This document shows, one piece after another, positions 3,655-14,303 of a stretch of 18,513 nucleotides of DNA. A model generated the notes under the pieces. The model ran no database searches. It worked only from the letters and a program-made list of their open reading frames with translations, and was not told where the DNA came from. Each line of letters begins with the position of its first letter. Position 1 is the stretch's first letter. The position numbers and the translations under genes are program-made. This stretch comes from Blautia sp. (lineage in GTDB: Bacteria > Bacillota > Clostridia > Lachnospirales > Lachnospiraceae): the NCBI GenBank assembly GCA_017420455.1, contig JAFOJB010000588.1, positions 1-18,513 of the forward strand, given 5' to 3'.

Positions 3655-5937
3655 ATGGATACCAGAAGAAAAAAGCTTCGAAAAAAACCCAGAAAAACAA
3701 ACAGGAAAGCAGTCAGCAAAAGAAACGCAGTCAGCAAAAGAAACGCTTCCACGGAGCGTGGATTCAACATGAGCATGAAAACAAAGCTGGTGGTACTATT
3801 TGTGATAGTGCTGCTGGCTTTAATCCTTTTGATGGGAAAGATCACCGTGATCATTTCCACGAACGGCGCCAGATACAAAAAACAGGTAATGAGCCAGGCC
3901 CAGCAGAAGTATGAAAGCCGGGTGCTTCCGGCCAGAAGAGGGGATATCTATGACCGGAACGGAAACATCCTGGCCACAAGCAATAAGGTATACAATGTGA
4001 TCCTGGACTGCAAGGTGGTAAACAGCGACCCGGATTTTGTGGAACCCACCATCCGGGCTCTGACAGAGGTCATGGGGATCAGCGAGGATGATATCCGGAA
4101 AAGGCTCACCGATGAGGATACCAGAAACAGCCAGTATCAGATCATCAAAAGACAGCTGTCCATGGATGACAAGCGTTCCTTCGAAGAATACTGCGATACT
4201 TCTCCGGAGAGCGGTCTTTCCGATACCCAGAAGGCGGAACGGAAAAACATCAAAGGAATCTGGTTTGAAGAGGATTATCTGCGCATCTATCCGTATAAGG
4301 AAGCAGCCTGCGATACCATTGGCTTTACCCTTTCCAGGGACACCGCGGACATCGGCCTGGAGAGTTATTACAACAGCACCCTTATGGGAATAGACGGCAG
4401 ACAGTACGGATATTTCAACGGGGAAGCGGATGTAGAACAGACCATCATTGACGCCACGAACGGCATGTCCATTGAGACAACGCTGGATATCGATATCCAG
4501 AAGATCGTGGAAAAATATGTGAACGCGTTCAACACCCGTATAGGAGCAAAGCATGTGGGAGTCATCGTGCAGAAGCCTTCTACCGGGGAAATTCTGGCCA
4601 TGGACGGCGGGGACAGGTACGACCTGAACGACCCGAGAAGGCTGGAAAGCCTTTATTCCGACGAAGAGATCAAAAATATGAACGACGCGGAGACGGTGGA
4701 AGCGCTGAACGAAATGTGGAGCAACTTCTGCGTGATGGAAGCATTTGAACCGGGCTCTGTCGTCAAACCGATCGTGATGGCCTCGGCGCTGGAAAAAGGA
4801 AAGATCGTGGAGTCAGATACCTTCGTCTGCGACGGCTTCCAGAATTACGGAGTAGAGGGGAGCGTAACTACCATCAAATGCGTGGTATATCCCGACTCCC
4901 ACGGGAACCAGACGCTTGGAGATGTGATCGCGAATTCCTGTAATGACGGGATGATGCAGATTGCCGAGAAAATGGGAAGGGAGCAGTTTATCCGGACCCA
5001 GAGCGTCTTCAATTTCGGCAGCAGGACCGGTATCGATCTTCCCAACGAGGCCACCGGCATTATTCATACCGCCGCCACCATGGGAGAGACAGAGCTGGCC
5101 TGCTCCGCCTTCGGGCAGGGCTTCACCTGTACCATGATCCAGGAGCTTAACGCGATGTGCTCCGTTATCAACGGGGGCTATTATTATCAGCCAAGACTCG
5201 TCTCCAGGATCAGGGATTCCAGCAAGGGCGTGGTAAAAACCTATTCCCCCATTCTGATGAAGCAGACCATCTCCGGGAATATTTCGGCAGATGTGCGCAG
5301 CTACATGCAGCTTTCCGTGGAACACGGAACCAGCGCCCAGTCGAAGGTAGAGGGCTACAGCTCCGGAGGAAAGACCGGAACCGCAGAGAAATTCCCCCGT
5401 GGAAACAATAAATACCTGGTTTCCTTTATCGGCTTTGCCCCGGTGGACAATCCGGAGGTCCTGATCTATGTAGTAGTAGACGAGCCCAACGTCGAAGAAC
5501 AGGCCAGCAGTGTTTTTGCCCAGTATATCGGACAGGGAATCCTGCAGGAGCTTCTTCCCTACATGAACATTGATCCGGACGAGGTCAGCGGTTATGTTCC
5601 CACCACGGAAATCTGGGAAGGCTTTCATGGCCTTGTTGACACTGCCAGGGATATTATCGTGGATGTGAACGGCGACCCGCTGGATATCAACGGAAACAGG
5701 GTAGACTGGAACGGGAACCGCATCGACGAAGAGGGTTACATCCTGGATGCCAATGGAAATTATGTATACGACGAGAACGGAATCTATATCAAATCCACGG
5801 CCATGGAAGGACTGGGGAGCCAGGCAGACGGAATCTCCGATACCAATGTTCCCGGCCCGCTGGAGGATGATTCCGACTGGGACGACGGAAATTATGAAAG
5901 TGAAGGCCTGACAAATGAAGAGGCGGGATTCGAATAA
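3655..5937 (+). CDS. Class B penicillin-binding protein, FtsI/SpoVD type
   Basis: A septal peptidoglycan D,D-transpeptidase of 760 residues. A very basic N-terminus of about 38 residues precedes one membrane anchor (about 44-65). The dimerisation domain begins near R-G-D-I-Y-D-R-N-G-N. The transpeptidase domain has S-V-V-K (catalytic S368, K371), S-C-N (428-430) and K-T-G (573-575). No PASTA domain follows. Instead a tail from about residue 640 has six 7-residue D-x-N-G repeats and an acidic end. ATG 3655 has GAGAGGG upstream; internal ATG 3769 would drop the basic region but lacks a well-spaced site. Its place between ftsL and mraY makes it the divisome PBP. Without PASTA domains it is closer to vegetative FtsI than to SpoVD, but I cannot decide from sequence alone, so no symbol is given. 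Confidence 0.93.
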   Translation: MDTRRKKLRKKPRKTNRKAVSKRNAVSKRNASTERGFNMSMKTKLVVLFVIVLLALILLMGKITVIISTNGARYKKQVMSQAQQKYESRVLPARRGDIYDRNGNILATSNKVYNVILDCKVVNSDPDFVEPTIRALTEVMGISEDDIRKRLTDEDTRNSQYQIIKRQLSMDDKRSFEEYCDTSPESGLSDTQKAERKNIKGIWFEEDYLRIYPYKEAACDTIGFTLSRDTADIGLESYYNSTLMGIDGRQYGYFNGEADVEQTIIDATNGMSIETTLDIDIQKIVEKYVNAFNTRIGAKHVGVIVQKPSTGEILAMDGGDRYDLNDPRRLESLYSDEEIKNMNDAETVEALNEMWSNFCVMEAFEPGSVVKPIVMASALEKGKIVESDTFVCDGFQNYGVEGSVTTIKCVVYPDSHGNQTLGDVIANSCNDGMMQIAEKMGREQFIRTQSVFNFGSRTGIDLPNEATGIIHTAATMGETELACSAFGQGFTCTMIQELNAMCSVINGGYYYQPRLVSRIRDSSKGVVKTYSPILMKQTISGNISADVRSYMQLSVEHGTSAQSKVEGYSSGGKTGTAEKFPRGNNKYLVSFIGFAPVDNPEVLIYVVVDEPNVEEQASSVFAQYIGQGILQELLPYMNIDPDEVSGYVPTTEIWEGFHGLVDTARDIIVDVNGDPLDINGNRVDWNGNRIDEEGYILDANGNYVYDENGIYIKSTAMEGLGSQADGISDTNVPGPLEDDSDWDDGNYESEGLTNEEAGFE
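3709..3744 (+). repeat. 18-bp in-frame tandem duplication in the PBP N-terminus
   Basis: GCAGTCAGCAAAAGAAAC occurs twice in tandem (3709-3726, 3727-3744), encoding A-V-S-K-R-N twice in the basic cytoplasmic tail. The exact identity of both copies points to recent duplication, with the frame kept. Confidence 0.9.
5659..5784 (+). repeat. Six 7-residue D-x-N-G repeats in the PBP tail
   Basis: Six 21-nt units start at 5659, 5680, 5701, 5722, 5743 and 5764. They encode VDVNGDP, LDINGNR, VDWNGNR, IDEEGYI, LDANGNY and VYDENGI. The pattern is (V/L/I)-D-x-(N/E)-G-x-x, with the last unit out of register by one residue. The DNA copies differ, so the repeat is old or selected at protein level. It lies after the transpeptidase domain, on the cell wall side of the membrane. 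Confidence 0.85.
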
Positions 5938-6949: not shown

Positions 6950-8305
6950 ATGGAATTAAAAGGAAAAAAGGTACTGGTTTTCGGGGCAGGAAAAAGCGGA
7001 CTGGGAGCCGCGCTTCTTCTGGGAAAAGTCGGCGCGTTTCCCATCATCTTTGATGGGAATACAGCGGCAGACCCGGAGGAGATCCGGAAAAAGACAGATC
7101 CGGCCTGTCATGCCGCCGTATATACCGGGGAACTTCCGGAGGAAATCCGCAGCTCCCTGGATCTGGTGGTGACGAGTCCGGGGGTGCCCGTAGACATTCC
7201 CCTGGTACAGAGCTTTTACACGCAGGGAATTCCTGTCTGGAGCGAGGTGGAGCTGGCATATCAGACAGGAAAAGGAAGAGTCCTCGCCATCACGGGAACC
7301 AATGGGAAAACCACCACTACGGCCCTCACGGGAAAGATCATGGCAGATGCCTGTCCTTCGGTCTTTGTGGTGGGAAATATCGGAACACCCTATACCTCCA
7401 TGGCTCTGGAGATGAAGGAGGATTCTGTTACCGTAGCAGAGATTTCCAGCTTTCAGCTGGAGACCATCGATGAATTTGCGCCGCAGGTCAGCGCCATCCT
7501 GAATATCACAGAGGACCATCTGAACCGCCACCACACCATGGAGGAGTATATCCGGGTAAAGGAGCTGATCACGAAGAACCAGACCGCGGAGGAATTCTGC
7601 GTTCTGAACTATGAGGATGAGGTTCTCCGGGAATTCGGGAAAAATATCACGCCGAAGGTCATCTGGTTTTCCAGTCTGAGAAGGCTGGAGAGAGGAATCT
7701 TCCTGGAGGGAGACCAGATTATTCTGAAAACAGAGCAGGAGGAAATCCCGGTGGTGAAGACCACAGAACTGAAGCTCCTGGGAAGGCATAACCATGAGAA
7801 CGTCATGGCTGCCATTGCCATGGCCTTTGCAGCCGGAGTCCCCATGGACAGCATCAGAAAAAGCGTCTGCGAATTTACGGCTGTGGCTCACCGCATTGAA
7901 TTTGTCGAAGAAAAGAATCATGTGGCATATTATAACGATTCGAAGGGAACCAACCCGGACGCCGCCATCAAGGGGATCCAGGCAATGAACCGCCCTACAC
8001 TTCTGATCGGAGGAGGGTATGACAAGGGCTCCAGCTATGATGAATGGATCGAAGCGTTCGACGGCAAGGTCCGCTATCTGGTCCTCATCGGCCAGACCAG
8101 GGAAAAGATCCGCGACGCGGCGCACAGACTGGGATTCACCAATACGATCCTCTGTGAGGATCTGAAGGAAGCGGTGGAAAAATGCGCTTCCCTGGCCGAA
8201 CCGGGAGACGCGGTGCTTCTGTCGCCCGCCTGCGCCAGCTGGGGACAGTTCGATAACTATGAACAACGAGGGGATATGTTTAAGGAATTTGTCCATGCTT
8301 TATAG
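6950..8305 (+). CDS. murD: UDP-N-acetylmuramoyl-L-alanine--D-glutamate ligase
   Basis: A cytoplasmic Mur ligase of about 451 residues that adds D-glutamate to UDP-MurNAc-L-Ala using ATP. The N-terminal Rossmann-like domain opens with V-L-V-F-G-A-G-K-S-G-L-G. The central ATPase domain has I-T-G-T-N-G-K-T-T-T (K120), E-I-S-S-F-Q-L-E and I-L-N-I-T-E-D-H-L-N-R-H. The C-terminal domain has H-N-x-E-N, Y-N-D-S-K-G-T-N-P-D-A and L-L-S-P-A-C-A-S-W-G-Q-F, the last typical of MurD. ATG 6950 is preferred, with AAAGGGGGA ending at 6940; in-frame TTG 6941 abuts that site and would be too close. ftsW and murG, its usual downstream neighbours, are not here; divIB follows directly. Confidence 0.97.
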   Translation: MELKGKKVLVFGAGKSGLGAALLLGKVGAFPIIFDGNTAADPEEIRKKTDPACHAAVYTGELPEEIRSSLDLVVTSPGVPVDIPLVQSFYTQGIPVWSEVELAYQTGKGRVLAITGTNGKTTTTALTGKIMADACPSVFVVGNIGTPYTSMALEMKEDSVTVAEISSFQLETIDEFAPQVSAILNITEDHLNRHHTMEEYIRVKELITKNQTAEEFCVLNYEDEVLREFGKNITPKVIWFSSLRRLERGIFLEGDQIILKTEQEEIPVVKTTELKLLGRHNHENVMAAIAMAFAAGVPMDSIRKSVCEFTAVAHRIEFVEEKNHVAYYNDSKGTNPDAAIKGIQAMNRPTLLIGGGYDKGSSYDEWIEAFDGKVRYLVLIGQTREKIRDAAHRLGFTNTILCEDLKEAVEKCASLAEPGDAVLLSPACASWGQFDNYEQRGDMFKEFVHAL

Positions 8306-8330
8306 GCTTTGAAGACCGGGGGGTATCACC

Positions 8331-9809
8331 ATAAATAAAAGAGTTGTAATCTGGGTCATTACCGCAGTCTTCGGATTGCTGCTGGGAGCTTTGGCATTTA
8401 TCTTCGTTTTCTTTCAGGTGGCACACGTGGAGGTTCGCGGAAGTACCATGTATACAGAGGAAGAGATCAAACAGCTGGTGCTGAAAGGGGTATTCTCCGG
8501 AAATTCCGCCCTGGCTCCGATCTTCTGTTCCACAAAGGATTCCGATATCTATTTTGTGGACAGCATTTCTGTTACACAGCTTTCCCGGGACACCATCGTC
8601 ATCAGTGTGCGGGAGAAAAAGCCGGTGGGATGTATCCATTTCCTGGATTCCTATGTCTATTTTGACAGAACCGGAACCTTCGTAGGAGGCTCCAGGAACA
8701 GGGACGAAAAAATCCCCTTCTTCAACGGGATCGAAGTGGAAAAGGTGGTAGAGGACGAAAAGCTCCCGGTCAGGGGAAGCAATATCCTTTCCACGGCCGT
8801 AACGCTGGCTACCATCTTCCAGAAAGAGGAAAAACTGCCGGAATATGTAGAGTTCGACGAAAATTCCCAGATCCGGCTGAAATATGAAGACATCATCGTG
8901 AGTCTGGGAGAGGATAAGTATCTGGAGGATAAAATGGCAAGGGCAGACGCCATTTTGAAGCTGATCTCCGGAGAAAAGGGAATCCTTCATCTGGAAAGTA
9001 TTTCCGATTCCAACAAAAATGTGACCTTTGAGCCCAGGACAGGGGACGTTACCGCCGAAACCTGGAAGGGCGGTTATACTGCGGACGGAGAGTTTACCGG
9101 AGACGGGGAATACAATGCCAGGGGCATCTATGTCGGGCCGAGACCAAAGACTGAGCTGGAATACGCCCAGGAGGCATGGCCGGGCGGATATGATGAAGAG
9201 GGAAATTACACCGAGAGCGGCGATTACGATGTATATGGGAACTACGTAGGGGGCTGGCCGACCCAGGAGGAAATAGATTCCCACGGGGACTGGAAGGGCG
9301 GATATACCGAGGATGGTTCCTATATCGGCACCGGGGAATATGACCACAGCGGAAACTACGTGGGACCGCAGCCGGAGAAGAATGCGGCGGAGGAAGAAGC
9401 AAAGGAAGAAGCAAAGGAAGAAACCCGGGAAGAGAATCACGAAGAAGAAAGCGCCGGTTCCCAGAGCCAGGAGGAGAGCTCTTCCTACGACGAGGACTGG
9501 GAAGAGGAATCTCAGGACTGGGAGGACTATGAAGAGGAAGAGGAGCCTGAAGAGGAGACAGAAACCGGATGGCAGGAGGAAGAACTGGAATATGCCCTTC
9601 AGGTCTGGGAAGGAGGATATGACGAGGAGGGAGATTATACCGGAGCAGGAGAGTACGACGGCTACGGGAATTATGTCGGTCCCCGTCCCACCCTGGAAGA
9701 TATGTACGACCACGGAAGCTGGAGAGGCGGCTATAACGAATATGGCGCATATGACGGCGTAGGCCAGTTCGACCGCAACGGATATTACATGGGTCCGAAT
9801 CCCAACTGA
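8331..9809 (+). CDS. divIB: DivIB/FtsQ-type division protein with long repeat tail, probable AUA start
   Basis: A bitopic divisome protein of about 492 residues. The N-terminus reads N-K-R-V-V-I-W-V-I-T-A-V-F, a short basic region and a membrane helix. A POTRA domain begins near residue 33 (V-E-V-R-G-S-T-M-Y-T-E-E-E-I), followed by the beta domain with V-R-E-K-K-P-V-G and Y-F-D-R-T-G-T. No ATG, GTG or TTG lies between the stop at 8310-8312 and TTG 8376, which falls inside the helix. AUA 8331 sits 7 nt after GGGGGG (8318-8323) and gives an intact anchor, so I infer a non-canonical start; TTG 8376 is the first recognised start and gives 477 residues. From 9063 the protein is a repetitive Gly/Tyr/Trp tail with a Glu-rich insertion (9375-9605), unlike the short tail of standard DivIB. 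DivIB binds FtsL and DivIC and controls septal synthesis. Confidence 0.85.
   Translation: MNKRVVIWVITAVFGLLLGALAFIFVFFQVAHVEVRGSTMYTEEEIKQLVLKGVFSGNSALAPIFCSTKDSDIYFVDSISVTQLSRDTIVISVREKKPVGCIHFLDSYVYFDRTGTFVGGSRNRDEKIPFFNGIEVEKVVEDEKLPVRGSNILSTAVTLATIFQKEEKLPEYVEFDENSQIRLKYEDIIVSLGEDKYLEDKMARADAILKLISGEKGILHLESISDSNKNVTFEPRTGDVTAETWKGGYTADGEFTGDGEYNARGIYVGPRPKTELEYAQEAWPGGYDEEGNYTESGDYDVYGNYVGGWPTQEEIDSHGDWKGGYTEDGSYIGTGEYDHSGNYVGPQPEKNAAEEEAKEEAKEETREENHEEESAGSQSQEESSSYDEDWEEESQDWEDYEEEEEPEEETETGWQEEELEYALQVWEGGYDEEGDYTGAGEYDGYGNYVGPRPTLEDMYDHGSWRGGYNEYGAYDGVGQFDRNGYYMGPNPN
9063..9803 (+). repeat. Five 28-residue W-x-G-G-Y repeats in the DivIB tail
   Basis: Units of exactly 84 nt lie at 9063-9146, 9177-9260, 9291-9374, 9606-9689 and 9720-9803. 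Unit starts are 114 nt (38 residues) apart except between units 3 and 4, where a 77-residue linker with 33 Glu and 4 Asp intervenes. Across all five copies W1, G3, G4, Y5, G9, G15, G21, Y23, G25 and P28 are invariant. Inside each unit glycines recur every six residues, followed two positions on by Tyr or Phe. The 10-residue links are acidic (K-T-E-L-E-Y-A-Q-E-A and similar). The nucleotide copies have diverged. The tail is predicted to lie outside the membrane. Confidence 0.93.
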
Positions 9810-13142: not shown

Positions 13143-14303
13143 ATGATGAAAAACTGGAAACGCGCTCTTGGAATCACCGCCGCAGCTGCAATGGCAATGT
13201 CCATGCTTGCTCCTGTCACCGCAATGGCAGACGATACCTTTAAGATCGGTATGATCGGACCTCTTACCGGCGCTGCAGCCATCTACGGAAACGCAGTGGC
13301 AAATGCCGGAGAGCTGGCTGTAAACGAGATCAATGAAGCAGGCGGAATCAACGGATTCCAGATCGAATACAACCCGCAGGATGACGAGCACGATGCCGAG
13401 AAATCCGTAAACGCCTACAACACCCTGAAGGACTGGGGAATGCAGATGCTTCTTGGCTCCGTCACCTCCGCTCCCTGCATCGCAGTAGAGGCAGAGGCTG
13501 CCGGCGACAACCTGTTCCTTCTGACTCCCTCCGGCACAGCAGTAGACTGCATCACCGCCGGTGACAATGCCTTCCGTGTATGCTTCTCTGACCCGGCACA
13601 GGGAACTGCAGCCGCCAAGTGGATCGGCGAGCATGAACTGGCAAAGACCGTAGGTATCCTTTATGACAGCTCCGATGTCTACTCCTCCGGAATCTATGCA
13701 ACCTTCCGTGCAGAGGCACAGAACCAGCCGTTCGAAATCCCGGAGAGCGCCATCACCGCCTTTACCTCAGACAACAAGACAGATTTCTCCGCACAGCTTC
13801 AGACCCTGAAGGATGCAGGCTGCGACCTTGTATTTATCCCCTTCTACTACAACGAGGCTACCATCGTCCTGAAGTAGGCTTCCGATATGGGCTTTGAAAC
13901 CCAGTGGTTCGGCGTTGACGGTATGGACGGAATCCTTTCCATGGAAGGCTTCGATACCTCTCTTGCAGAAGGCCTGATGCTTCTTACACCGTTCTCCGCA
14001 ACCGCAGAGGATGAGCTTACCCAGAACTTTGTCGCCAAATACCAGGAGCTCTACAAGGATATTCCGAACCAGTTCGCTGCAGATGCCTATGATGGCGTAT
14101 ACATCATGAAGGCAGCCCTGGAGAAGGCAGGCGTTACCGCTGATATGGACTACAGCGCAGTATGCGATGCCATGAAGACAGCCATGACAGAGATCCAGTT
14201 CGAGGGTATTACCGGAGACATCACATGGACAGCAGACGGCGAGCCTACCAAGGATCCGATCGCTGTAGTGATCAAAGACGGTATTTATGAGATCATGGAA
14301 TAA
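13143..14303 (+). pseudogene. livJ: Branched-chain amino acid type substrate-binding protein, split by in-frame TAG
   Basis: One continuous reading frame of 387 codons is interrupted only by TAG 13875-13877 (codon 245); the second part restarts at ATG 13887. Family features are F-K-I-G-M-I-G-P-L-T-G-A near the mature N-terminus, A-V-N-E-I-N-E-A-G-G-I-N-G, a type I periplasmic-binding fold, and Y-Q-E-L-Y-K-D-I-P-N-Q-F-A-A-D-A-Y-D late. The protein would bind ligand outside the cell and deliver it to LivHMGF. The signal peptide ends A-M-A before D-D-T and has no lipobox Cys, unusual for a Gram-positive binding protein. Start ATG 13143 has AAGGAGG (13131-13137); ATG 13146 is equally possible. 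The sequence after the stop is well conserved, so the lesion is recent, a sequencing error, or suppressed. TAG ends several other genes here, so recoding is unlikely. Confidence 0.85.

Follow-up and report, generated by a model that had tools for sequence, protein, structure and literature searches.

A conserved, clade-limited array of glycine- and aromatic-rich units in the C-terminal tail of a Blautia DivIB protein

The divIB locus and its product

The stretch of DNA analysed here, referred to as the window, comprises 18,513 nucleotides from Blautia sp. and contains a divIB gene in the mra/fts operon, near murD and before ftsZ. The gene and the parts of its product are the following.

8331..9809, + strand: divIB (FtsQ/DivIB family), from the open frame and homologue alignment
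8337..8411, + strand: putative N-terminal membrane helix, residues 2-26, helical in the AlphaFold2 model
8424..9050, + strand: canonical DivIB core (POTRA and beta domain), residues 31-239
9063..9146, + strand: unit 1, residues 244-271
9147..9176, + strand: linker 1, 10 residues, predicted short helix
9177..9260, + strand: unit 2, residues 282-309
9261..9290, + strand: linker 2, 10 residues, predicted short helix
9291..9374, + strand: unit 3, residues 320-347
9375..9605, + strand: Glu-rich spacer, 77 residues (33 Glu, 4 Asp)
9606..9689, + strand: unit 4, closest to unit 2 of relatives (mean identity 0.78)
9690..9719, + strand: linker between units 4 and 5, resembling linker 2
9720..9803, + strand: unit 5, closest to unit 3 of relatives (mean identity 0.58)

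The product consists of 491 residues after the start, followed by a stop (frame 8334-9806, corresponding to P0001). Translation probably starts at the ATA at 8331. The frame is open from 8313, and this ATA aligns with the TTG of L070 and with the beginning of P0011 (MNKK). The ATA is either the apparent start codon of divIB or an assembly error at 8331. The listed open reading frame of 477 amino acids begins at the TTG at 8376, a position inside the membrane helix; it thus truncates the helix, and since the real frame starts upstream, the tail makes up about half of the protein. Counted from residue 240 it comprises 252 of the 491 residues, which slightly lowers the share of over half that had been estimated from the sequence-only reading. 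That the helix spans the membrane is suggested by its hydrophobic sequence.

The earlier assignment of the protein to DivIB is borne out by the operon context and by the fold, as the top Foldseek/VIA matches of the model are FtsQ/DivIB entries. In a Pfam search on 58 aligned relatives (E ≤ 10), FtsQ_DivIB_C was found in 49 and POTRA_1 in 33; the window protein's own FtsQ_DivIB_C match is weak (E 0.12, below the cut-off). In the database, three named relatives are annotated plainly as 'cell division protein FtsQ/DivIB'. The window protein resembles DivIB/FtsQ in its single N-terminal membrane helix, POTRA and beta domains and place in the operon. Unlike the usual DivIB of the family, which ends after the last beta strand, it carries about 250 extra residues, and the tail is indeed additional, as had been supposed, because the other DivIB proteins of the family mostly end where it would begin.

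In the window, murD adjoins divIB (8305-8331), as in 16 of the 57 congener loci that have both genes. The remaining 41 show a gap of at least 500 bases, presumably occupied by ftsW and murG. Elsewhere in the window, at 13143-14303, one gene is split into two open reading frames by an in-frame TAG (13875-13877); we take it to resemble a gene for a branched-chain amino acid binding protein.

Anatomy, occurrence and evolution of the units

The five units begin at residues 244, 282, 320, 425 and 463 (nucleotides 9063, 9177, 9291, 9606 and 9720), i.e., at start-to-start distances of 38, 38, 105 and 38 residues. Ten positions are invariant in all five: W1, G3, G4, Y5, G9, G15, G21, Y23, G25 and P28. 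The sequence-only reading had described five 28-residue units with ten invariant positions, a spacing of 38 and a 77-residue spacer, and this is correct to the residue. When the tail was shuffled and read with the same spacing, more than one invariant position was obtained in none of 5000 shuffles. Pairs of units share 43 to 71% of their residues (12 to 20 positions), of which 6 to 13 are encoded by different codons, in agreement with the codon divergence noted before; the array is therefore no recently formed tandem repeat of DNA. Within the tail, which has a net charge of -60, Tandem Repeats Finder reported a 12-bp repeat in the acidic stretch and nothing else. The database cluster P0002 is identical to the window protein over its 460 residues and occurs on 3 contigs, the longest of 66,203 bases. 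As far as this cluster tells, the tail is not missing from an independent assembly; given these contigs and its presence in relatives, it is probably not an assembly fluke.

A protein search yielded 1044 relatives at E ≤ 0.001, the best-scoring 120 of which were examined together with the query. By a simple pattern, these 121 proteins have three units in 108 cases, two in 8, four in 3 (in P0094 through a spurious match) and five in 2, both of the latter being the window's own protein; P0003 and P0004 differ in their unit arrangement. Named relatives with a related DivIB include Blautia sp. MSJ-19 and Candidatus Blautia excrementipullorum. Within the genus (Blautia), a divIB match is present in 63 of 64 genomes. 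A fixed pattern was applied to 62 stretches plus the window, giving 63 DivIB sequences, and units were detected in 55 of them: three in 33, the commonest number, two in 10, one in 11 and five in the window. These numbers are lower bounds for L079, L094, L117, L120 and L125, whose sequences run into a contig end on their 3′ side, and the second unit match in L127 is spurious. The other 8 DivIB proteins (including that of L125, cut by the contig end) have no unit, and all 8 have an acidic tail nevertheless, so that the units appear dispensable.

Outside the genus the picture is different. DivIB was found in 147 of 150 family genomes, and among the other family genomes with a listed match its frame is at most 300 residues long in 106 of 143 (median 262 residues, versus 422 in 61 genus sequences). 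Some extra tail occurs in 7 of the 29 best-scoring family loci, and the unit is absent from all 29 of these as read. A profile of the tail (E ≤ 0.01) matched in 5 of 397 family genomes, two of them of the window's genus, and in 1 of 391 class genomes. Because DivIB proteins of the family are mostly short and the unit is rare there, the unit array can be considered a mark of this genus. In the window's own genome, which is 78% complete, the unit profile matches the five units, with no further match below E 6.

The evolution of the units was followed in 34 sequences that have three units spaced by 38 residues, with the core as reference. Units 1, 2 and 3 show mean identities of 0.775, 0.768 and 0.693, compared to 0.600 for the core, and pN is 0.127-0.209 in the units versus 0.253 in the core. 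Synonymous difference is similar throughout, as pS is near saturation in units, core and linkers (0.71-0.80). In 44 close pairs, the pN/pS ratios of the three units are 0.086, 0.091 and 0.115, below those of the core (0.152) and the linkers (0.150-0.165). By these sequence comparisons the units are under purifying selection stronger than that on the DivIB core, and the selection on the tail that had been proposed is thereby supported. Across species, units with the same number are 0.69-0.78 identical and differently numbered units 0.60-0.67. The orthologous units are thus closer than neighbouring ones, indicating a fixed array and no product of slippage, and since units inside one protein are no more alike than units across species, there is no sign of concerted evolution.

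A tree of mraY, murD and ftsZ was built with a quick method as an unrooted reconstruction; support is below 80 at 17 of its 60 inner branches, and it contains long branches. Several deep branches of this tree include proteins with three units, and the number of units, ranging from 0 to 5, changes at least 15 times. Three units are probably the old state, with later losses. Units 4 and 5 of the window are each preceded by a linker that matches the one before units 2 and 3 of relatives. Together with the likeness of unit 4 to unit 2 and of unit 5 to unit 3, this indicates that a block of units 2-3 was probably copied behind an acidic stretch; the five units of the window probably represent the three of the genus plus this copy.

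Predicted structure and possible role of the tail

Units 1-3 modelled alone with AlphaFold2 (51 rows) gave a pLDDT of 90.0 and a pTM of 0.75. The model contains two short helices, both in the linkers, and isolated single bridges that recur every six residues, at each of the four aromatic positions of a unit. For the solenoid suggested from the sequence, which would consist of regular stacked rungs, the model offers these isolated bridges. In the full-length model, block means of pLDDT are 83-95 over residues 241-350, and pLDDT is below 50 over residues 354-359 and 361-413. Units 1-3 are thus predicted to be folded and the acidic spacer to be disordered, as expected from its earlier description as flexible. 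For units 4 and 5 pLDDT is low, with few alignment rows reaching unit 4, so the structured tail proposed from the sequence is upheld for the first three units and stays at low confidence for the last two. Foldseek of the tail against PDB and BFVD gave no credible solved match, with a single chance match for the tail model (E 8.9) and two chains to align for VIA. As regular secondary structure is scarce in the model, the lack of a match argues weakly in favour of a new fold.

The acidity of the tail is a general property. All 59 tails measured among the 63 genus sequences are acidic, with or without units (net charge -16 to -90, median -45), and the units themselves have a median charge of -5 each (102 units, the window's first three included). 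Other repeats occur in these tails as well. Four deep-branching congeners (L117, L127, L128 and L129) have repeats of the type DxDGDGxND. The tail of L127 gives a weak match to the calcium-binding Excalibur family (E 0.0019, under the cut-off), and three of the four DxDGDG tail pieces have no Pfam match at E ≤ 0.1. Low-complexity YDDGS/YDES stretches are common at the extreme C-terminus of DivIB in the genus. In L104, the DivIB frame is open over 802 residues, with three units followed by long NGTGSS and DYGTYQ repeats.

A second acidic tail is found on the FtsI/SpoVD-type PBP of the same operon, which ends with seven-residue repeats of the type D-x-x-G-N (window 5620-5934, net charge -22). 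A tail of this kind, with a conserved terminus resembling ESEGLTNEEAG, was seen in 49 of the 52 congener loci that have a PBP match, and in the remaining 3 a second PBP had been matched; the last 100 residues of the PBP carry -17 to -40 in these 49 congeners. A search with the single tail sequence matched in 3 of 120 family genomes, the window's own included. In L121 and L123, two congeners with a DivIB that lacks units, the PBP tail includes a unit-like stretch with E-values of 0.003 and 0.005; one of the two was scored and reached 38 bits.

In DivIB, the whole chain beyond the membrane helix is extracellular, and the protein acts at the septum. The tail would accordingly be a genus-specific extracellular extension beyond the beta domain, composed of a folded array of Gly/aromatic units (usually three, here five), short helical linkers and a long acidic disordered segment. 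A tentative reading, possible rather than probable in our judgement, is that it serves as a multivalent, low-affinity docking arm at the septum. The arm would hold the FtsL-DivIC-DivIB complex in place, the four aromatics per unit, at six-residue spacing, most probably binding glycan of the growing septal wall. The acidic segment would act as a flexible, mutually repelling stalk, and changes in copy number would tune reach and avidity. The position on the outer side of the septum, the docking and the ligand are all inferred. Such a wall-gripping arm has a precedent in kind, as S. aureus DivIB is described to bind peptidoglycan through its extracytoplasmic domain and DivIC to bind wall teichoic acid (PMC9652317). 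A docking arm is further supported by the predicted folding of units 1-3 and their conservation above the core, by the frequent changes in copy number, as expected of a multivalent module, and by the restriction of profile matches in the own genome to the five units. It is weakened by the dispensability of the units in the genus and by the lack of a confident fold for units 4 and 5. Docking on the outside is also weakened by the occurrence of YDENGNYIG repeats in NusA-like tails (see below), NusA being cytoplasmic, and the acidity of tail and units disfavours binding to an anionic wall.

The acidity of tail and units, the loss of units and the acidic tail of the PBP keep two other explanations alive. 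The units could bind a protein instead of the wall, i.e., an FtsI-type PBP, DivIC, FtsL or a hydrolase regulator, and thereby gate septal synthesis. The conserved PBP terminus and the unit-like stretch in the PBP of two congeners without DivIB units point in this direction, and EAGR boxes, the nearest resemblance to the units, are described as apparently taking part in protein interactions (PMC9262362); the tails of DivIB and PBP are both acidic, though, and would repel each other, and on balance we consider this reading rather unlikely. Alternatively, a long acidic outer tail might be selected as a polyanionic brush that spaces the complex or holds Ca2+/Mg2+, with the units as one of several exchangeable building blocks. 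While the acidity of every measured tail and the DxDGDGxND-type repeats, with the Excalibur match of one congener, would suit such a role, it fails to explain the exact length, register, aromatics and above-core conservation of the units, and most of these repeat pieces are without a Pfam match; we regard it as unlikely. That the Gly/Tyr/Asp-rich tail merely grew by slippage and drifts without a specific function would agree with the common low-complexity C-terminal ends and the frequent changes in copy number, but the purifying selection on the units, the absence of concerted evolution and the high-confidence fold make this highly improbable. The docking arm at the septum is kept as the preferred, if tentative, reading.

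DivIB is an old component, compact as a rule, of the machinery that initiates septal wall synthesis. In one genus of gut bacteria, this protein and the FtsI-type transpeptidase next to it have acquired outer tails that have been overlooked in annotation. Since the units are conserved, predicted to be folded and without a credible solved match, they offer a short expressible domain for a direct ligand search, and the natural series of 0 to 5 units provides a way to ask what the outer side of DivIB holds.

Comparison with known repeat families

A Pfam scan of the tail gave no credible family match, and in the scan of aligned relatives no family fitting the tail was among the 25 of 31 families listed. 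Although the tail is common within one genus, no already described domain was found to match it; the known protein DivIB here carries a conserved, clade-limited module for which no description was found. The sequence-only reading had loosely compared the units to MORN repeats. The spacing of Gly and aromatics is indeed loosely similar, but the DivIB period is 38 residues whereas the MORN model (PF02493) has 23 positions, and the likeness is not sustained by the searches, as neither the divIB position of 6 genomes (E ≤ 10) nor the Pfam scan of the tail yielded a MORN match. Choline/glucan-binding repeats are another aromatic/Gly repeat used on surfaces. Choline_bind_1 (PF01473) is abundant in the window's own genome (G000, 36 matches); none lies in divIB among the matches listed (to E ~0.66), and none was found in the tail by the Pfam scan.

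The nearest resemblance is to the EAGR box (PF16713), a domain found in mycoplasma terminal-organelle proteins. The best PDB sequence match of the tail is the EAGR box of MG200 (4dcz), with an E-value of 0.32 for the full profile and of 0.11 for the unit profile, the latter not significant for a database-wide search; the next unrelated chain has 1.6. The three-unit profile A2 gave no EAGR match against PDB sequences at E ≤ 10. hhalign of unit against EAGR reports a probability of 85, as a pairwise value uncorrected for the database. The score of 16.2 bits was reached in none of 2000 shuffles (maximum 12.0), and constrained shuffles went up to 15.6 bits when Gly was kept and to 14.1 bits when Gly and aromatics were kept. 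Among the units tried, unit 1 of L116 is best, with 12 identities in 26 positions aligned without gaps to the 4dcz fragment. Above the Pfam gathering score, EAGR_box was found in none of 21 genomes, with the DivIB of one congener at E 0.019; the family is absent from the results of the tail's Pfam scan and from the 25 of 31 families listed for the relatives, and matches below the cut-off also occur in five control genomes.

Related motifs are seen in other proteins. In two other genera of the family (L025 and L066), proteins that we take to be NusA end in repeats of the type YDENGNYIG, which the DivIB unit profile also recognises. As these reach 27-28 bits, above the 16.2 bits of the EAGR box, the likeness to the latter is not special. 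In the own genome, a gene at L027 616-1569, presumably lipoprotein-like and located behind a glycerol-kinase-like gene, has motifs of the type NGYYDANGYWV; it gives the best EAGR_box match of this genome, with an E-value of 4.6e-4, below the cut-off.

The EAGR box is called Mollicutes-only and tied to gliding (PMC12323609), and is placed in an intracellular cytoskeletal protein, the exact significance of the motif being called unknown (PMC9262362). EAGR box and DivIB unit have in common four consecutive G-x-aromatic hexapeptides in register, which align without gaps, and D-E-x in the first and third hexapeptides; they differ in hexapeptides 2 and 4, where the EAGR box has Trp and the DivIB unit has Gly. 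It is conceivable, if doubtful, that both share a fold. A module regarded as restricted to wall-less Mollicutes and their gliding organelle would then occur as tandem copies on the outer face of the divisome in walled Clostridia, and would go back to an older Gram-positive module for docking in division and cytoskeletal assemblies. If this likeness is real, an unexplained mycoplasma domain gains a relative in walled bacteria.
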